A stretch of DNA of 64,000 nucleotides from Parapedobacter tibetensis (GTDB taxonomy: Bacteria; Bacteroidota; Bacteroidia; Sphingobacteriales; Sphingobacteriaceae): assembly GCF_024704835.1 (NCBI RefSeq), contig NZ_JAMXBE010000003.1, forward strand, positions 1 through 64,000, given 5' to 3'. The notes under the pieces are model-generated. The model was not told the origin of the DNA, did no database searches, and was given only the letters and a program-made list of their open reading frames with translations. Shown here in pieces: positions 41,121-48,650 of the stretch. The translations under genes and the position numbers were made by a program. The stretch's first letter is position 1. Every line of letters begins with the position of its first letter.

Positions 41121-42503
41121 TCACCTATTTTGTGGCATACCTGTAGCCAGTATGACGTCCTGAGGCAGTAGATAAATATATTTGGGATCGTTTGGCGGCA
41201 GCGTATAAACCTGTTTGGTTGACCCATCATCGACTTCCCTCATTAACGTTTTCGCAAAACGTTCATCCTTGTTCAGCCGCCGCAGATCAGACCACCTTAC
41301 ACCCCTAAATGCCAACTCCTTACGGCGTTCACCTACAATGATTGCCAATGCCCCAGATTCTGTCGTAGCGGTGTAAGGTTCATAGGTTCCGGTTTTCCAC
41401 CTCGTTTCCAGCAATTGATTCAGGGCCGAAATTGCCTCCGCAATGCGCCCCGCCCTTGCCCTGCATTCCGCCCGTATCAGGTATAACTCGTCTGTTGCCA
41501 ATCCGGCAAAATATGTGGAGTTACTTCCGGTATAGCTACCCCGGAATCCAATATAACCGTTGCCTTTGTCGAAGTAATAAGCCGATTTCCGCAAATCGTC
41601 CTCGGCGTAGGCATGATATAATTCATCCGGAATATTTGCCCGGGTATTCAACAACAGCTGGCTTCCGTTTGTACAGAAAGCGAAATAAAGGGTTTCTTCA
41701 TGAAAGGGGGTGAATGGATAGTTGAGGCTGAAATCAAGTTGGTTGAAATCCAGGAGAGCTGCCTGCCGGGTAAGGGCAGCATCCGCCATTTCGTCTGCCA
41801 GTTCGTATTCTTCCATGGAAAGGTAGATCCGCGCCAAAGCGGCGTAAGCCGCCGTCTTGTTTGGCCTCGTTTTGTAATCGGTATGTTCCGGCAGAAGAAC
41901 AACAGCCTGCTGCAGATCATCTATAATCCGGTCGTATGTTTCTTTCACGGTAGCCCTCGTGGATTTTACATTAAAGTCGGACGTGAGACGCAGCGGAATA
42001 CCCAACCCGTCGTTGCTTCCGTTGACTTCATACGGAGCGCTGTAAAGCTGGGCCAAAAAATAGAAAGCATATCCACGGATAAAAAGCGCTTCGCCCTTCA
42101 ATATATCCCTGAGGGCTGGGTTGGCTTCCTCGATTCGGTCCAATGCTTCCAATACAACATTGGCCGTCGTGATGGCCCTGTAACTGTTTGTCCACTGCTG
42201 CCCTGTATTTGTCGGCAGGAAAAACGGCGCTGCATCCCACAGATAGATCGCCTGATCGAACGCTGGCCGGCTGGAAAAGACGCTATAATCCAGAAAATAA
42301 TCATCCGTTCCCATTTCCAGCAGGCCGGGCGCGTGTCTATTGATTTTATCTTCGTCATCCAGCAATGCCCTCAGATCTGCCAGTGTTTCCGGTGTGGAAA
42401 CAGATACGTCCGGCTTGGCGTCGAGGAATTCACTGCATGCAAACAGATTACCGAGGACAGCTCCGGCAAGCACGGCAAAAAAACATTTCTTCACGTTTTT
42501 CAT
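41121..42503 (-). CDS. SusD/RagB-family nutrient-binding lipoprotein
   Basis: A 460-residue outer-membrane lipoprotein. Lipobox LFAC with acylated C23. A helical SusD-like N-terminal domain (SEFLDAKPDVSVSTPETLAD, TPETLADLRALLDDED) and RagB-like repeats: ALDRIEEANPALRDILKGEA, then FIRGYAFYFLAQLYSAP and the closing block DELYLIRAECRARAGRIAEA plus ERRKELAFRGVRWSDLRRLN. It partners the SusC-like receptor upstream and covers its barrel. Ligand unknown; the operon carries no glycoside hydrolase or peptidase to tell. Confidence 0.92.
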   Translation of the reverse strand: MKNVKKCFFAVLAGAVLGNLFACSEFLDAKPDVSVSTPETLADLRALLDDEDKINRHAPGLLEMGTDDYFLDYSVFSSRPAFDQAIYLWDAAPFFLPTNTGQQWTNSYRAITTANVVLEALDRIEEANPALRDILKGEALFIRGYAFYFLAQLYSAPYEVNGSNDGLGIPLRLTSDFNVKSTRATVKETYDRIIDDLQQAVVLLPEHTDYKTRPNKTAAYAALARIYLSMEEYELADEMADAALTRQAALLDFNQLDFSLNYPFTPFHEETLYFAFCTNGSQLLLNTRANIPDELYHAYAEDDLRKSAYYFDKGNGYIGFRGSYTGSNSTYFAGLATDELYLIRAECRARAGRIAEAISALNQLLETRWKTGTYEPYTATTESGALAIIVGERRKELAFRGVRWSDLRRLNKDERFAKTLMREVDDGSTKQVYTLPPNDPKYIYLLPQDVILATGMPQNR

Positions 42504-42520: not shown

Positions 42521-45500
42521 TTAAAAGGTTGCAGACAGACCAATCGTATAAGCCCTTGCAGGAGGCAATTCGTAATAATCAGGGTCCAGGCCCGATTGAT
42601 TGGCGCTCCAAAGCAGCGCTGCATTGTTTACATTGCAATTCACCTGTAACTGATTGGTTTTTCCCAGCCATTTCGGTTTAAACGTATAAGCAAGCCGGAT
42701 ATCCTGCAACCGTATTACGTCGCCTTTGTCGATATTGGCGTCGGAATAGGCATAAAAATTATCGCGGGCGGAATTTGCCGGATAAACCAATGAAGGCACC
42801 GTGGTGATCCGCTCATCGCCGGGCGCCTGCCAGCGTCGGTCAAAATCACGGTGTGTTGCCCAGGAATTGAACAGCGCAGCGTAATTGATCGTTTGGCGCT
42901 GGAAATAATGCCCGAATTTATACGTAATGTTGATAAAGAGCTCCACCCCTTTCCACCGGAAACTATTCTGCAGCGAGCCATAATAAGGCGGCAGGGCTGT
43001 ACCGTGGTAACGGAGGTACTGCATGGAATCCGCCAGCAAACCGGAATAGTTCTTGGATACTTCGCCGGCCAGGAACCCTTGCGGATCGCCGGTCTGCGGA
43101 TCAAGACCGGCAAACCGGTAGGAGAATATCGGGTACAATGGCTTATCCAAGGTGGGAAGCAAAGATGTACCGGCGTAGGAAGCATAGGTAAGGGAAGCAT
43201 GTTGGGCACCGTAATATTTCGTGACCCGGCTGGTATTATTTGATAACAGTACCGTGGAGTTCCACTCGAATGCACCGTTCAAATTGCGGGTAGTGACTTG
43301 GATATCAAATCCACGTCCCTTTACCTCGCCCACGTTGCGGCGGATGCTCGAAAAACCGGTCGTTGGGTCAAGCGCATCGTCTGTTATGAGGTCTGTGGAT
43401 TTCTTGGTGTAGTATTCAAACGTGCCGCTTACCCTGCCGCCAAACACCGAGAAGTCGATGGCATAGTTGATCATGCGCACGTCTTCCCATTTGAGCTGCG
43501 GGTTGGGCAACGTGGTTATCATAGCCCGGCCAAGGTTGGTCCGCCACGAACTCGACGGCGAAAGGTAGGTAATTACCGGCAACGTGCTCGCCATGCCCCC
43601 GGAATTGCCACTGTGCCCGTAGGTCGCGCGGACCTTCAATAAGTCCAGCCACTGGACACCCGTAAGGAATCGCTCTCTTGTGGCAACCCATGCTGCGCCA
43701 GCCGACCACAGCGGATTCCACCGGTCATTGGTGGCCACGCCAAACAGGTTGGACGCATCGCGGCGGGCTGAAAGCGATACGATATACTTCCTGTCGTAAG
43801 AATATGCGCCATTCCCGTAAAACGACACGAATCTACGCAGGCCGGCATCCAGACCGCCATACCAGTCGACCCTGCTATCGCCTGCCAGCCCCCCGTATAC
43901 CGGGTAGGTATTCACATAATCCACCTGCTGTGTAGTGAGCAGGTGCTCGTTGTAACCGTAAGCACGGAACCCACTGGATTTATCCGGTCGGTGGGAGACT
44001 TCCGACCCTACAAATACCGTCACATTTTGTATCCCGCGGAATGTGCGGTCCATATTGAGCTGTAAGCGAACTCGGTGGCTTTCCATCCCCGAATTAGCGC
44101 TGTTGAGGATACCGCCCGGCGGAATGATATGGGTCACGGATTCACCCGCGACCTGCGTAAACCGGTTAATTTCGTTTCGGGCGTAGAACGAACGCTCGCT
44201 ATATACCGTTTGCATCTCGCCCATCTGTTTTTCAAAAGCGTACAGACCCTCAATCTTCAGCCAGTCCGTAATGCCGTAGTTCACATTCAGATTCGCTATC
44301 AGATGCTGCGTCCGGCGGTTCATGCCAGCGTTGTGCCGTTCATCATACGGCCGCATCTTCCAATCCAGCAACTTGCCGTTCCCCGCGGTATCAACGAAAT
44401 TATAGTTGTATTGATACGGTATTGCCAGTGCCTCGCCGCCATCCCCGACCAATCTGGCGTAAGGGTATAAATTAGATTTTCCGCCACCCACAACGATGGG
44501 ATATGATGTCGCCGCACCCACGCCGTTGGCTGTGTTCGATTGCGTGTATGCGACCACGGTCTGCAGTTCCATCCGCTCCACCGGCTTCAGCGTATTGGTG
44601 GCCCGCAGCGTCAACCTGCCCATGTGGTTGTTTATGGTCGTGCCTGCATTGTCGTCATAACCCACGGAAAGGCGGTAAGCACTACGGGAATCACCTCCTG
44701 ATAGGGAGACGTTGTATTGCTGTTTTACGGACGGGCGGTAGAAATAGCGCATCATCTCCTCGCGGTAATCATAGCCGCGGTAACCATCAATAGCCGCCAT
44801 CGCATCAGCCTCGTTTAGCAACCCGTTATCACGCTTGTGGAGGATATCCACTACAGGCGAAAAGACATACCGCCTGGCGTTGACACCGTTGAGCTGGGTA
44901 TCATAAAATCCATTTTCATACAACATCAGCTCCATATCGATGAAGTCAGCGGCACGCATGTGCGGATAGTAATAGAGGTTTGGCTTTTCACCGACGGTAG
45001 CGTTAGCGGTCGCAGAAATCTGCGTTGGCTGGTCGGCCAACGGTTTTTTCATATTGATAACGATGACACCGTTTCCGGCCCGTGCACCCCATATCGACGT
45101 AGCGGCGGCGTCCCTGAGCAGTGTTACCGATTCCACATCGTTTGGGTTGATGTTACCGATGTCACCTTCGAAAGGGAAGTTATCCACGACGACGAGTGGC
45201 TGTGTAAGCGCATCGGAAAGCGTATTGATACCGCGGATGTTGAGCCGCGGAGCCGACCCGGATCGGTTGTCGAATTGCAGCCCCGGGGCAATACCATCCA
45301 GCCGTTCGAGGATATTGGTGGTGATCCGGTTGTTCAGCAATGCACTATCCAGCTGCACGAATGAACCGGTTGCCCGCTCCTTCGGTATGCGTTGGTAGCC
45401 TGTGCTCACGACTACCTCTTCCAATATCCGGGCCTCTCCGGTGAGTATGACCTTCAGGAATGAAGTGCTATCATTGAAATGTGCGGTATATCCGTGGTAT

Positions 45501-45724
45501 CCGACGTGGGAGATATGGATCGCCCCCGCAGACAGCGGGGTATTGAACTGGAAGAGCCCCCGCGCATCCGAGAAAACGATCTGGCCTCCCGTCCCGATGC
45601 TGATGCTGGCCTTTTCGATTGGCCGTCCATCCACATCTACGACCGAGCCTTTGATCTTATGCTGGGTACGTCCTTTGTGTATGCCCAGCAGCATACAGCT
45701 AACTATAAGAAAATAGATTTTCAT
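42521..45724 (-). CDS. SusC/RagA-family TonB-linked outer-membrane receptor
   Basis: A 1067-residue receptor. Signal peptide at the start; carboxypeptidase-regulatory-like domain about 22-105 (KGSVVDVDGRPIEKASISIG); plug about 115-230 (FVQLDSALLNNRITTNILER with the SusC block LNIRGINTLSDALTQPLVVV, VESVTLLRDAAATSIWGARA and NGVIVINMKKP). A barrel follows to the C-terminal aromatic. It lies 17 bp before SusD on the same strand and 5 bp after the TlpA-like gene. The three are one operon, taking up an unknown large nutrient. Confidence 0.93.
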   Translation of the reverse strand: MKIYFLIVSCMLLGIHKGRTQHKIKGSVVDVDGRPIEKASISIGTGGQIVFSDARGLFQFNTPLSAGAIHISHVGYHGYTAHFNDSTSFLKVILTGEARILEEVVVSTGYQRIPKERATGSFVQLDSALLNNRITTNILERLDGIAPGLQFDNRSGSAPRLNIRGINTLSDALTQPLVVVDNFPFEGDIGNINPNDVESVTLLRDAAATSIWGARAGNGVIVINMKKPLADQPTQISATANATVGEKPNLYYYPHMRAADFIDMELMLYENGFYDTQLNGVNARRYVFSPVVDILHKRDNGLLNEADAMAAIDGYRGYDYREEMMRYFYRPSVKQQYNVSLSGGDSRSAYRLSVGYDDNAGTTINNHMGRLTLRATNTLKPVERMELQTVVAYTQSNTANGVGAATSYPIVVGGGKSNLYPYARLVGDGGEALAIPYQYNYNFVDTAGNGKLLDWKMRPYDERHNAGMNRRTQHLIANLNVNYGITDWLKIEGLYAFEKQMGEMQTVYSERSFYARNEINRFTQVAGESVTHIIPPGGILNSANSGMESHRVRLQLNMDRTFRGIQNVTVFVGSEVSHRPDKSSGFRAYGYNEHLLTTQQVDYVNTYPVYGGLAGDSRVDWYGGLDAGLRRFVSFYGNGAYSYDRKYIVSLSARRDASNLFGVATNDRWNPLWSAGAAWVATRERFLTGVQWLDLLKVRATYGHSGNSGGMASTLPVITYLSPSSSWRTNLGRAMITTLPNPQLKWEDVRMINYAIDFSVFGGRVSGTFEYYTKKSTDLITDDALDPTTGFSSIRRNVGEVKGRGFDIQVTTRNLNGAFEWNSTVLLSNNTSRVTKYYGAQHASLTYASYAGTSLLPTLDKPLYPIFSYRFAGLDPQTGDPQGFLAGEVSKNYSGLLADSMQYLRYHGTALPPYYGSLQNSFRWKGVELFINITYKFGHYFQRQTINYAALFNSWATHRDFDRRWQAPGDERITTVPSLVYPANSARDNFYAYSDANIDKGDVIRLQDIRLAYTFKPKWLGKTNQLQVNCNVNNAALLWSANQSGLDPDYYELPPARAYTIGLSATF

Positions 45725-45729
45725 GAGAT

Positions 45730-46284
45730 TTAGATGTTTTTGGATTTCAGGAGAATGATCAATTGATCATTATGTACGAATTCGTTGTTTGTGATGGCCA
45801 GTATCTTGCCCTTGGGGCTTATCCAAACGTAGTGCGGTATGGCCGAATGCGGGAATCGCTTGATGAGGTATTCATCATAAACGATCGATGGCAGTGAGGC
45901 CCCGCCCTGTTCGGTTAAGGTAGTTCGATAGGTATACGCTACTTTTTCGTAGGTATCCCGCCTACGCTTTACATTTACCAGCATCACAGCAAGCTCATCC
46001 GAAAATTCGGCTTTCAGCGCTTCGAGTTTAGGGAGATTATTACGGCAATAGCCGCACCATGTGGCCCAAAAATCCAGGATGAGGAATTTGCCTTTGTATT
46101 GTTCCAGCGACATCCACGAGGTGTCACCGTTGTGGTAAACCAAATGCTTCGTTGTCCAGAATTCAGCAGGTACCCGCGCGCCCACTTGGAGTGTCTGCGG
46201 TTCGACCACCCCTGCCTCCCGCTGCGCGTCCGTTTGTGCATACAGGCCGGTAGCCGAAGTGAAAAGCAGAAAAGCAATCACCAT
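45730..46284 (-). CDS. TlpA-type thioredoxin-fold protein
   Basis: A 184-residue protein from ATG 46284 (MVIAFLLFTSATGLYAQTDA, a weak signal peptide). The frame stays open upstream to 47253, but that stretch is low-information. Thioredoxin fold with LILDFWATWCGYCRNNLPKL, the redox pair C77/C80. Part of the TlpA/AhpC family acting as a periplasmic thiol-disulphide reductase. It is first of the operon with SusC and SusD, and may serve disulphide bonds in the exported proteins. A GC-rich hairpin (46299-46324) lies 15 bp before the start. Confidence 0.8.
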   Translation of the reverse strand: MVIAFLLFTSATGLYAQTDAQREAGVVEPQTLQVGARVPAEFWTTKHLVYHNGDTSWMSLEQYKGKFLILDFWATWCGYCRNNLPKLEALKAEFSDELAVMLVNVKRRRDTYEKVAYTYRTTLTEQGGASLPSIVYDEYLIKRFPHSAIPHYVWISPKGKILAITNNEFVHNDQLIILLKSKNI

Positions 46285-46298
46285 CACCCCCAAAGCGA

Positions 46299-46324
46299 GG
46301 CCCAGCCCGCTACGGGCTGGGGCC
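46299..46324 (-). promoter_or_regulatory. GC-rich hairpin just before the TlpA start
   Basis: GGCCCAGCCCG, CTA, CGGGCTGGGGCC, with one bulged G. On the minus strand it ends 15 bases before the ATG, where it could hide the ribosome-binding site or work as an attenuator. It lies inside the open frame that extends upstream. Confidence 0.45.
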
Positions 46325-46447
46325 TTCGCGTGGGTACAAACACATGATTCTTCACTGTTCTTTCGACAAGTGCGTACAAATGGGCCAAGCTGCCACGGGC
46401 TTCGAGCTGCCCCCATCCTCCATTGCGATATTCTTGCCCTACCTTTG

Positions 46448-46487
46448 AGCCACGTATTAGCCACGTATAGGCCACGTATTAGCCACC
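46448..46487. repeat. Tandem GCCACGTAT repeat
   Basis: AGCCACGTATTAGCCACGTA, TAGGCCACGTATTAGCCACC: four units of 10-13 bases. It lies in the long non-coding stretch between the TlpA gene and the structured RNA. Similar words recur nearby (GAAGCCACCTTGATGCCACC at 46640-46662). Confidence 0.55.
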
Positions 46488-46975
46488 TTTTATATCGTGT
46501 GAGGTGGGTGTATGATGCCCGAGTAATCCCTGAGCAAAACCTATCTATTATCCGGCGATAACGAGGGACAGCACCGTGACGCACGCGATGCACGATCCCA
46601 AGGCTCTCTCCGAGTTGGGTTGGGAGCTCAGACTGGACTTGAAGCCACCTTGATGCCACCTTCAACGCACCTTGTTCGCATTCCGGGGCATTGAGTGCGC
46701 ATCGAGTTGGCTTGGAGGTGGCATCCAGCTCCGAAGCCGACCCCAAGCGGCCCCCAACATCACTCCACCCCGATCCATGCCCCATCCCTTGCATATCCGA
46801 ATGTGCCTTTCTCCCGTAGGTGTGCCGTGTACCCTTCGGTAAAGTGTCGCTTTTCGGCCTTTTTACCGAGATATACACGGGTATCACAGGGATATGGCCC
46901 GAATGAGGGATAAGGGAAGGCGGGCTGAAACACGGGATTGGCTTAGCTTTCCGAAGACCAAGCACACCAGCGCCC

Positions 46976-47105
46976 GACTTTCTCCTGCCCGTGTTCTGCC
47001 ATCTCCCGTGCCGTGCGCGGGGCGTATGCGGCACGCATCCGTGGTTTTCCCGCATACAGCCCGCATACGCCCCGATAAATTCTCGGGAGATGGCAGGAGA
47101 AAGTC
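46976..47105. repeat. 130-bp nested inverted repeat
   Basis: Three nested arm pairs: GACTTTCTCC (46976-46985) with GGAGAAAGTC (47096-47105); TGCCATCTCCCG (46997-47008) with CGGGAGATGGCA (47084-47095); GGGGCGTATGCGG (47019-47031) with CCGCATACGCCCC (47061-47073). All are perfect. The arms are stacked with small gaps, so a single long hairpin can form. A tandem AAAGTCCGAAG repeat follows at 47100-47125. No coding frame explains it. Confidence 0.75.
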
Positions 47106-47340
47106 CGAAGAAAGTCCGAAGAAAGGCAGGACGTGTTCGCGAGCTTTCTGCATAAGTATCCCACTTATCCGGTGCGTATTGCAGGTGTATGTGGTGAGTT
47201 GGTCGTATTTGCTTGAGGCAATACAAGCCCCTTAAGCGTAAATTTTGCTTCATTAAATATCAGATTGAGTGAAAGAATAATCGGTTAATCCAAGTGTTCT
47301 TTCACATCAATCCGGCGCCTTGACTATATTTTTGTAAAGA

Positions 47341-47722
47341 TTGGAGGTTGGCTGTACCCAGGGCCGGGATCGAACCGCTATTGCGATTCCTCCTTTTGGA
47401 GGCCTGTAGCCGGTTAGTTGATGTTGTTTAAGTGGTACCATAGGTTTTGATGTTTATCAAAACCTCGTTAACCAACTGTAGCGAAAACTCCCGAAGGAGC
47501 CGGGCCACTCTTGGCTGTCTACACAACGGACCGCTTAGGACGGCGCTGCCGAAGCAGCCACTACCCGAGGGCAGCACCAGAACACAAACCGCAAGTTGAC
47601 CCGGATCCCCAGGATATGGGGTGTCCGGGTGCTCACCTACGCCTCTGTGTTCTTAAAGTTCCTAAGCTTTGTGTAGAACGAGGCTTTTGTGAGCACCCAC
47701 TTTACATTCTTTTAATGGGTGT
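47341..47722 (-). ncRNA. Candidate structured RNA, minus strand
   Basis: A run of stems that favours the minus strand as RNA. Two hairpins have the extra-stable cUUCGg tetraloop (47488-47499 and 47545-47558). Others are a 9-bp stem (47443-47451 with 47456-47464), CCTCC/GGAGG (47389-47402), and a long composite stem: GGGTGCTCAC (47627-47636) with GTGAGCACCC (47689-47698), inside it GCCTC/GAGGC and GTTCT/AGAAC. A T-loop-like GGTTCGATCC (47376-47367) lies near the 3' end, but the matching tRNA acceptor and D-arm are absent. A TATTTTTG box on the minus strand (47730-47723) is at the 5' end. No coding frame in either direction is convincing. Confidence 0.4.
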
Positions 47723-47808
47723 CAAAAATACTGATTTTAATTTAACTCTCTATTTGTCGTTATTTTTACTATAAATTTTAAAAAAATTGATTCGGTTTAC
47801 TAATTTTT

Positions 47809-47826
47809 TTATCTTTACAAAGATAA
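47809..47826. promoter_or_regulatory. Perfect 18-bp palindrome between the RNA and the XRE genes
   Basis: TTATCTTT AC AAAGATAA. The minus strand of the palindrome contains TATCTTTG, an exact -7 box for leftward transcription. It lies 72 bp before the first XRE gene, where an XRE dimer would be expected to bind. Confidence 0.6.
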
Positions 47827-47897: not shown

Positions 47898-48311
47898 ATG
47901 GATGTTAGCACAAAATTAAAGCTTCTCAGAGAACGACATTCCTACACACAAGAATTTGTCGCAAGTAAGCTTGGAATTAGTCAATCGACATATTTTAACT
48001 TGGAGGCTGGCAATACAAAACTTTCGGTAAAGAGAGCGGCTCAATTGGCTGAGATATATGGTATCCCTGCTAGCTTTTTCTTTGATAATGCTTGCACCTT
48101 TACCAATTACAATATAGGAGACTTTAGTCGTACAATAAACCGTTCTGAAATTAGTAATAGCGATTTAAAAGACATTAAATTGCTATATGAAAAGCTTTTA
48201 CAAGAGAAGGATCTATTGATTGACTTCTTGACCAACGAGCTTAATGTGTGTAAGAAAGAAAAGAAAATTCTGTCCGAGTTATTGAATGTAAAATTGGCGC
48301 AAAACATCTAA
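47898..48311 (+). CDS. XRE-family helix-turn-helix regulator
   Basis: A 137-residue protein. N-terminal XRE domain at about 1-62 (LKLLRERHSYTQEFVASKLG, ISQSTYFNLEAGNTKLSVKR, AAQLAEIYGI), followed by a linker FTNYNIGDFSRTINRSEISN and a coiled coil to the end. The segment NYNIGxxSRTI is shared with the next gene. It is probably a repressor binding the palindrome upstream. It is divergent from the candidate RNA. Confidence 0.8.
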   Translation: MDVSTKLKLLRERHSYTQEFVASKLGISQSTYFNLEAGNTKLSVKRAAQLAEIYGIPASFFFDNACTFTNYNIGDFSRTINRSEISNSDLKDIKLLYEKLLQEKDLLIDFLTNELNVCKKEKKILSELLNVKLAQNI

Positions 48312-48359: not shown

Positions 48360-48650
48360 ATGGCTGAAACAATCTTTAAAGGACTGCGTGTAGAAAACAA
48401 CTATGACATTGACCAAGTTGCGGCTGAATTAGACATAACTACTGCTGAGTATGAACTAATAGAATCTGGTGTGGCCAAGATTTCTTACGAACAGGCTGGC
48501 AAATTAGGGAAGTTTTATGGCATAGATCCCAAACATCTTCTGGGCGTGTCTGAAAGCGTGAATTATAATATTGGCAGGTATAGTCGAACTATTTATGCTC
48601 AAAAGTATTACGAAAAATCAGAAGAGTCAGAGACTAATAATAAAGAGTGA
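48360..48650 (+). CDS. Small XRE-like regulator, partner of the previous gene
   Basis: A 96-residue protein with an XRE-like fold: VENNYDIDQVAAELDITTAE, YELIESGVAKISYEQAGKLG and KFYGIDPKHLL. It then repeats NYNIGRYSRTIYAQKYYE. It is 48 bp after the first gene and shares its tail motif, so the two are probably an old duplication working together. Confidence 0.7.
   Translation: MAETIFKGLRVENNYDIDQVAAELDITTAEYELIESGVAKISYEQAGKLGKFYGIDPKHLLGVSESVNYNIGRYSRTIYAQKYYEKSEESETNNKE

Follow-up and report, generated by a model that had tools for sequence, protein, structure and literature searches.

Organization of the locus

The window, a 64,000-nucleotide stretch of the Parapedobacter tibetensis genome (NZ_JAMXBE010000003.1, positions 1 to 64,000), carries on its minus strand, in this order, a TAnnTTTG box, a GC-rich structured segment, a hairpin, a 44-codon ORF, and genes for a TlpA/thioredoxin protein, SusC and SusD (Table 1). 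The end of the promoter box lies 281 nt from the first start codon, and 53 bases separate the stop codon of the small ORF from the TlpA/thioredoxin gene. Two HTH_3 genes lie upstream on the plus strand, so that the RNA is divergent from XRE genes as first described.

Table 1. Features of the locus, listed along the minus strand after the divergent genes
Feature	Position	Strand	Evidence
Second HTH protein behind the first	48360..48650	+	Pfam HTH_3 E 8e-6
Divergently oriented XRE-type HTH regulator	47898..48311	+	Pfam HTH_3 E 6e-13
Palindrome TTATCTTTGTAAAGATAA, 8-bp arms, between the divergent genes	47809..47826		111/500 shuffles as good
TAnnTTTG box TATTTTTG of the leader	47723..47730	-	Upstream of core in 30/49 loci
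P0 5′ arm at the RNA 5′ end; alternative-fold partner of P1 5′ strand	47716..47722	-	0/10000 permutations; 30% paired (MAFFT)
P1 5′ strand, also P0 3′ arm	47689..47698	-	0/10000 permutations; 100% of cells paired, 11 sequences
P2 5′ strand; alternative partner LR at 47469-47459	47677..47684	-	Own versus other partners for P2 and LR
Helix H 5′ strand	47669..47677	-	H+PK2 0/10000; 5/9 pairs changed on both sides
Helix PK2 5′ strand	47660..47667	-	85% of cells paired; 1/8 pairs changed on both sides
Helix PK1 5′ strand	47646..47653	-	Main block 6/6 pairs changed on both sides, 65% of cells paired; 2-pair outer block 50%
P2 3′ strand	47641..47645	-	Small energy effect; 54.5% of cells paired (MAFFT)
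P1 3′ strand, within the rod	47627..47636	-	Own-partner energies, 11-sequence alignment
Hairpin P3	47600..47629	-	3/8 pairs changed on both sides
PK1 3′ strand	47579..47586	-	Own-partner energies, 11-sequence alignment
cUUCGg-loop hairpin (P4 region)	47545..47558	-	Fold, sequence
PK2 3′ strand	47533..47540	-	Own-partner energies, 11-sequence alignment
H 3′ strand	47518..47526	-	Own-partner energies, 11-sequence alignment
P8 strand; second pairing option for P3 3′ strand (47604-47598)	47500..47506	-	94.8% of cells paired; own -20.45 versus others -15.13, 0/5000
cUUCGg-loop hairpin	47488..47499	-	Fold, sequence
LR strand AACGAGGTTTT; pairs with P2 5′ strand, overlaps 5′ arm of start-codon hairpin	47459..47469	-	0/20000 permutations, 35 loci; 85% of cells paired
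Start-codon hairpin, ending one base before ATG	47443..47464	-	Fold; local hairpin at 40/43 first-ORF starts
44-codon small ORF with C-terminus SNLYKNIVKAPD-stop	47307..47441	-	Related C-termini in relatives
25 nt identical to tRNA-Leu(CAA) 3′ end, within the small ORF	47354..47378	-	BLAST; one-base uncertainty at the ends
Hairpin directly after the small-ORF stop	47269..47305	-	z -3.0
TlpA/thioredoxin-like first operon gene, conserved start MKQNLRL	45730..47253	-	Thioredoxin E 5e-10, C-terminal 166 residues
SusC-type TonB-dependent transporter	42521..45724	-	Plug E 8e-14
SusD-like lipoprotein	41121..42503	-	SusD-like_3 E 2e-39

The initial annotation had seen here an isolated, unannotated structured RNA on the minus strand that had no coding signal. 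A structured RNA on this strand is borne out by its fold and by covariation in relatives, but the RNA is not isolated: it precedes the thioredoxin/SusC/SusD operon as a 5′ leader, and a small ORF with counterparts in relatives that have related C-termini makes up the last third. That this minus-strand element is a conserved, structured leader RNA is near certain, and it is likely that it acts in cis as the leader of the TlpA-SusC-SusD operon. From its position we infer that it is transcribed as the 5′ part of an mRNA.

The RNA had also been credited with a promoter box of its own, and comparison of loci agrees with this. The TAnnTTTG motif, which we take to be the Bacteroidota -7 promoter box, occurs within 74 nt upstream of the core at 30/49 loci (shuffles: mean 3.5, maximum 9) and falls at -27 to -36 in 27 of those 30, a position that the window shares. 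A plasmid or phage origin was rejected after the search gave no match. Among the papers listed by a literature search, none was seen to describe this leader; the table entry for RF01715 was the one related item.

The MKQNLRL start of the TlpA gene has three further copies in the window's genome. By eye, about 300 GC-rich codons with short degenerate repeats (46340-47200) lie between this start and the signal peptide in the ORF at 47253-45730, and comparable repeat-rich stretches follow the operon-gene start at two other loci (L057, L063). The true start codon of the TlpA gene may lie further downstream. By eye, small GGGGnTAGCTATGCCC-type hairpins recur just inside the downstream gene in the window (47240-47215, minus strand) and at L024, L031 and L047; a similar motif, GGCCnnGCTTTG, is present at L074-L076 outside any long ORF.

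A conserved core crossed by a pseudoknot

The minus-strand fold of the window RNA has a z-score of -7.0, with 0/100 shuffles as good, against -4.0 for the plus strand. Both cUUCGg-loop hairpins, from which the orientation had originally been read, lie on the minus strand (47558-47545 and 47499-47488). The proposed composite stem is likewise present in all its parts, GGGTGCTCAC/GTGAGCACCC, GCCTC/GAGGC and GTTCT/AGAAC (47679, 47653); for the strands of the third part, relatives favour other partners.

We assessed each helix over 49 distinct loci (50 in the first version) by asking how strongly its 5′ segment pairs with the 3′ segment found at the same locus, compared with the 3′ segments of all other loci. 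Own partners paired more strongly for H+PK2 (-21.76 versus -12.97 kcal/mol; shuffled targets -12.42), PK1 (-11.77 versus -6.90; shuffled -7.00) and P1 (-13.74 versus -9.53; shuffled -5.78), and by a small gain for P2 (-6.90 versus -6.16; shuffled -5.12), with 0/10000 permutations as good in each case. In a MAFFT alignment of 11 sequences, from which the badly mapped P4 was taken out before counting, 82.9% of core cells are paired, compared with 76.0% when shuffled, and 38 core cells are changed on both sides, compared with 15.6±3.3 when shuffled and 2-13 in slid versions; 17 of the 47 pairs are changed in this way.

Pairing on this alignment is low for P2 (54.5% of cells), PK1 (50-65%) and P0 (30%). 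We put the low values of P2 and PK1 down to misaligned loops; much of the support for all three helices therefore comes from the free-energy test. Covariation among homologues, the check named beforehand, is present in H, PK1, PK2, P3 and P1, and more weakly in P2. Together, these comparisons show a predicted rod, built in the order H, PK2, PK1, P3, that is crossed by a pseudoknot of P1 and the weaker, nearly invariant P2. P1 and P2 cross the rod because their 5′ strands precede H and their 3′ strands sit inside PK1.

Distribution and downstream genes

A BLAST search of 60 genomes, the window's own included, found parts of the RNA in G003, G004, G005 and G007, all four of the window's genus, and in G026, which belongs to another genus; the remaining hits are to the tRNA-Leu end. 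In an alignment of these, an ORF with a related C-terminus comes after the RNA, and the same-genus loci then have a MKQNLRL-like operon start. R1, a covariance model built on the first 128 positions, matches 9/201 genomes of the family, and a second model built from 10 hits (R2) matches 52/399 at E≤0.01, in 12/25 genera, with eight matches in one genome (G751). This threshold applies per genome, so about four chance hits are expected among the 399. Of the 52 genomes, we inspected the R2 hits in 38; only weak hits (E 2e-4 to 1e-2) occur in the remaining 14. R2 misses more divergent leaders even at E≤5, and its counts therefore leave some out. Among 395 genomes of the class, R2 matches the window's genome and G567 only.

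A pattern scan of named genomes gave 20 places. Six are confirmed by R2, all in Sphingobacteriaceae (Parapedobacter koreensis, P. pyrenivorans, Mucilaginibacter pineti, Pedobacter sp. KBW06, Sphingobacterium alkalisoli and another Sphingobacterium), and the 14 others, from many phyla, have no R2 match.

In all, 53 loci were examined, of which 52 are distinct and 50 have distinct cores. One of them (L079) is probably a false hit, having adjoining tandem repeats and no HTH gene that we could see; it is left out of the tests on 49 loci and included in those on 50. Counting the places found by the peptide pattern, the window among them, together with three more copies found through the operon start and a copy on contig C7, we arrive at a minimum of six such units for the window's genome. 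In one operon-start copy (L092), the ORF beginning this way is 40 codons long. Eleven extra leaders lie outside the reach of R2. Their folds have z-scores of -5.0 to -8.7 in 9/11, the other two (-2.3 and -2.4) being folds that began inside the RNA, and our reading of these single folds suggests that the eleven share the rod. By eye, several of the divergent leaders (among L092, L094-L101, L103 and L104, and also L090) have a TAnnTTTG-like box in the P3 loop, for example TATATCTTTGCATATA, which is possibly a second, internal promoter.

Truncated copies occur at L024 (G007) and L025 (G005), one consisting of the 3′ part with the ORF and the other of the middle only, and both stand before the conserved operon start. 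Two further loci, L062 (G194) and L063 (G605), have an identical RNA core and divergent gene, and L062 breaks off in the 3′ part of the RNA and continues with other sequence, as if deleted.

The first long downstream genes at 49 loci include 11 for redoxins, 10 with a TonB plug, 6 for ECF sigma factors and 5 with a HEPN domain. The window's own downstream piece ended before the domain and gave no match in this count; the separate scan shows the domain. At L048, L049, L064, L069, L070 and L082, the leader leads into an ECF sigma factor gene (assigned from the proteins), mostly directly and with no small Pro-x-stop ORF between. RNA copies L071-L074 and L077 of G751 apparently precede HEPN-domain genes, assigned by their similar N-termini, unlike those in front of uptake operons. 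Such diversity of downstream genes would be odd for a riboswitch with a single ligand.

Alternative pairings and the start codon

The two alternative 5′ folds that had been claimed for the RNA reappear here: the CACCCA/TGGGTG pairing is in the MFE structure, and its equivalent is kept in relatives. For this alternative helix, P0, own partners pair at -9.90 kcal/mol and those of other loci at -6.85 (49 loci, 0/10000 permutations; -5.60 when shuffled). The 5′ strand of P2, which reads GAGCCTC at many loci, GAACC in the G751 type and GAGAC in L067, also has an alternative partner, the strand LR. When LR was anchored on the start codon, own partners again paired more strongly than others (-11.55 versus -9.71, 0/20000, 35 loci); a control region behind the start codon gave no such effect (-4.46 versus -5.17), and the signal was weak with a wide, unanchored window (3/5000 permutations). 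The anchored test covered 35/43 loci with an assigned start, with seven distant-start loci and one duplicate excluded. At a third site, column 149 in the 3′ strand of P3, A changes to G in 4/11 sequences; its P3 partner changes from U to C in all four, and its P8 partner in three, the fourth forming a G-U pair.

As a set, the alternative pairings score modestly above column shuffles (covariation score 3/500, cells changed on both sides 19/500, pairs changed on both sides 323/500), partly because MAFFT misaligns P0. A local hairpin with a 3′ arm extending to the region of the start codon is found by the same rule at 25/37 starts of divergent genes as well as at 40/43 first-ORF starts, and the mean unpaired probability around the start, 0.35 against 0.47, differs moderately.

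The leader has two features expected of a riboswitch, namely a covarying, aptamer-like core in what its position makes a presumed 5′ leader and, at the level of anatomy, mutually exclusive pairings that would expose or hide the start site (LR against P2 plus the start-codon hairpin). The balance of the inference lies with a two-state switch. In the first state, P0 and LR would form and LR would take up the 5′ arm of the start-codon hairpin, leaving the small ORF readable. In the second, P1 and P2 would lock the pseudoknotted core and the start-codon hairpin would close, turning translation off. A ligand, protein or condition would select between the two.

The same leader RNA could also function without switching, as a stable pseudoknotted 5′ structure that binds a protein or protects the mRNA, with P0 and LR as intermediates of co-transcriptional folding. 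The helices of the core are far better supported than the alternative set, and the varied downstream genes would suit such a role. We nevertheless think it unlikely, since P0 and LR pair in a partner-specific manner and the 3′ end of LR precedes the start codon by 10-41 bases in 34/35 loci, the exception being L064, where it lies at the start.

A small ORF with a proline near its end

The small ORF is a recurrent part of the leader. At 30/50 loci, a 12-60-codon ORF whose second-last residue is proline starts no more than ~310 nt behind the core, compared with 4.3±2.0 (maximum 9) in shuffles; it is this test that counts, as the peptides behind the C-terminal consensus KNII..PE were picked by their ending and the proline that they have in common is no evidence. 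Endings include KNIVKAPD, KNIICAPE, KNLISAPE, KSIAKNPV, LISPPE and KPPD, and the peptides are 14-47 aa long. None of the small ORFs tested matched a family in NCBIfam (seven tested) or Pfam (three tested). In having a small upstream ORF with a conserved C-terminus, the leaders share a feature of arrest peptides. Arrest at the Pro-x-stop end is plausible by analogy, because Bacteroidota upstream ORFs (uORFs) that end in N-S/A-P-stop arrest while the A site contains the stop codon, as part of PMC10987492 describes.

A degenerate codon pattern for the peptide ending matched 9 places in nine genomes of the genus, the window among them, against 1 control match. At each of the other eight places, a GC-rich leader is followed by a small ORF. 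A recognizable TlpA- or SusC-type gene comes next at six of the eight, and in the other two (L100, L104) only a similar operon start is readable (MKRILRYG, MERILRFG). Beyond the family, among 395 genomes of the class, the motif was found in 12 genomes (13 places) against 7 control matches, which is no clear excess.

Small ORF and RNA might instead make up a dual-function unit, in which a trans-acting structured RNA and a functional small protein share a transcript of their own that ends before the SusC/TlpA operon and is regulated by the XRE gene. A transcript end would fit the strong hairpins found past the small ORF at some loci and the T-rich tails seen by eye at L036, L050, L052, L053 and L084. 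These hairpins are significant (z < -1.5) in 11/30 loci and absent in 19/30, and we rejected a general transcription-attenuator hairpin at this place. Selection on the protein would fit the constrained C-terminal codons of three pairs of ORFs, in which synonymous and nonsynonymous changes over the last 15 codons number 7 and 0 (G003 versus G004), 3 and 0, and 3 and 0, but two pairs of very short ORFs give 2/5 and 2/6. The N-termini and lengths of the peptides also vary, which is unusual for a working protein, and the leaders of L048, L049, L064, L069 and L082 run directly into the ECF sigma gene. We consider a dual-function unit improbable, and favour a leader whose small ORF probably encodes a regulatory leader peptide that would tune the uptake operon by terminating slowly.

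The T-loop-like segment described in the initial annotation lies within the small ORF and turns out not to be an RNA module but a 25-nt copy of a tRNA-Leu(CAA) 3′ end. With this, the idea of a stand-alone noncoding RNA with a T-loop was rejected. That the rest of a tRNA is missing around it was correctly seen: ARAGORN finds no tRNA in this region, and there is no tRNA-like domain, so that identity as a tRNA or tmRNA was also rejected. Of five homologues compared, only that of G007 has the fragment in common with the window. A tRNA-Leu 3′ end has here been captured inside a leader ORF, where translation would read through it. The 25-nt identity and the truncated copies in G005 and G007 might suggest that the locus is what remains of a mobile element or of an attachment site at tRNA-Leu and that its structure arose incidentally, but this is very improbable given that relatives without the tRNA piece retain the RNA, ORF and neighbours, that the fragment lies within the ORF rather than at an element boundary, and that the structure covaries.

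Divergent regulator genes and a model for the leader

A Pfam match of HTH type (E≤0.05) was found for 29/38 divergent neighbours scanned, three of these matches being weak (L039, L062, L065). The scan covered 37 of the 44 divergent ORFs together with L090, and left out the spurious-looking ORFs of L060, L070, L072, L074, L076, L079 and L080; a divergent ORF is absent in 6/50 loci. There was no match for the divergent proteins of L048, L049, L053, L057 and L061, the ORF taken for L061 probably being the wrong one, and that of L067 has only a weak match to a phage regulator. The divergent gene of L059 encodes an SDR, that of L078 an esterase and that of L081 a nuclease-family transposase, and ten loci of the G751/G769 type (L059, L060, L071-L078) have no recognizable HTH neighbour.

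The palindrome at 47809 had been put forward as the site through which the XRE genes control the RNA. Shuffles of the intergenic sequence match or beat it in 111 of 500 cases, which is no better than chance, and we rejected it as an operator. Regulation of the leader by the XRE protein is suggested by the position of the gene, from which the protein would set transcription of the leader.

We consider it reasonably probable, judging from the sequence comparisons, that the leader is a two-state translational switch acting together with a small ORF that is probably a regulatory leader peptide, and that the XRE protein sets its transcription. A more tentative extension is that these loci could form a large and hardly described class of two-layer regulators in which a pseudoknotted RNA switch acts on a tiny ORF with a stalling Pro-x-stop end instead of on the operon itself, combining RNA and nascent-peptide sensing in series with an XRE regulator on top, and that this unit could have been reused before many TonB/thioredoxin uptake operons and ECF sigma genes.

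SusCD/TonB uptake systems are a hallmark of the Bacteroidota and, to our knowledge, few leader RNAs are known in these bacteria. If the proposed mechanism is true, the leader would add an extra layer of regulation over such systems, and if it has a ligand, the cargo of the transporters should point to it.

Comparison with known regulatory leaders

Translational riboswitches consist of a structured domain that, through strand exchange, controls a hairpin over the start codon. The leader resembles them in having a structured domain, exchanging strands and a start-codon hairpin, but it has in addition a small ORF before the operon and, beside many copies, an XRE gene; its downstream genes are varied and it has no known ligand.

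The small ORF has counterparts of its own. Parts of PMC10987492 describe Bacteroidota arrest uORFs that end in N-S/A-P-stop and lie upstream of secA/secDF, with toeprints that place the stall at the stop codon. At its end the leader ORF likewise has a proline, at the stop codon or beside it, but its ending is usually x-P-[E/D/V/I]-stop and it lies upstream of TlpA/SusC. The uORFs of the CutF/CruR type control metal and TonB-transporter genes (CutF, PMC9973294; CruR, PMC10987492). They are small ORFs with a C-terminal proline motif that stand ahead of an uptake or metal gene, in the case of CutF together with an mRNA stem-loop. The leader ORF shares the C-terminal proline motif with these and the stem-loop with CutF, but the RNA part of the leader is far larger. 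CutF is described as exported (PMC9973294), whereas no export signal was seen by eye in the small ORFs of the leader.

Relation to Pedo-repair RNA

The initial annotation had assigned the RNA to no known family. In agreement with this, the window has no Rfam match at the gathering score and, at E≤10, only a chance miRNA match, so that a known Rfam family was rejected. The Pedo-repair RNA (RF01715) in particular has no match in the window, at the gathering score or at E≤10, nor in G000, and the window does not reach its cut-off of 150 bits. Comparison by eye nevertheless reveals the same order of helices in the RF01715 consensus and in the window RNA, namely H, PK2, PK1, P3 and a UUCG-type P4 hairpin, and the consensus also holds a crossing ACUUUGC/GCAAAG pair that is not marked in the model.

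Intermediates between the two exist. L037 and L059 score 31.5 bits (E 0.0037) and 28.4 bits (E 0.024) against RF01715, with the RF01715 helices falling on H, PK2, PK1, P3 and P4 in the alignment, and a search of ten genomes with this family gave 115 bits in G769 (L089) and 93 bits in G751 (L090), both below the cut-off. R2 finds neither L089 nor L090, and this, with the lack of an RF01715 match in the window, makes the window RNA a distant relative of Pedo-repair RNA and not a member. On these sequence comparisons, a predicted leader superfamily in Sphingobacteriaceae includes Pedo-repair RNA, with the window RNA as its distant relative.

As far as the main text of the 2010 paper by Weinberg et al. 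goes, Pedo-repair RNA appears once, in a table, with Pedobacter as its range (PMC2864571). The window, which comes from Parapedobacter, lies outside that published range (PMC2864571). The pseudoknot, the switch strands, the HTH neighbour and the uptake operons do not figure in the table passage (PMC2864571). In this way, an orphan Rfam motif of one genus would be extended to a family that occurs in several Sphingobacteriaceae genera and has a fold based on covariation, an associated regulator gene and small ORF, and a specific mechanism that can be tested.

The two RF01715-like loci share further parts of the arrangement found in the window. By eye, L089 and L090 both have a start-codon hairpin. 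L089 continues with a 30-codon ORF ending in KPPG-stop; the next ORF of L090 has 147 codons, without the small Pro-x-stop ending, and L090 has a divergent HTH_3 gene.
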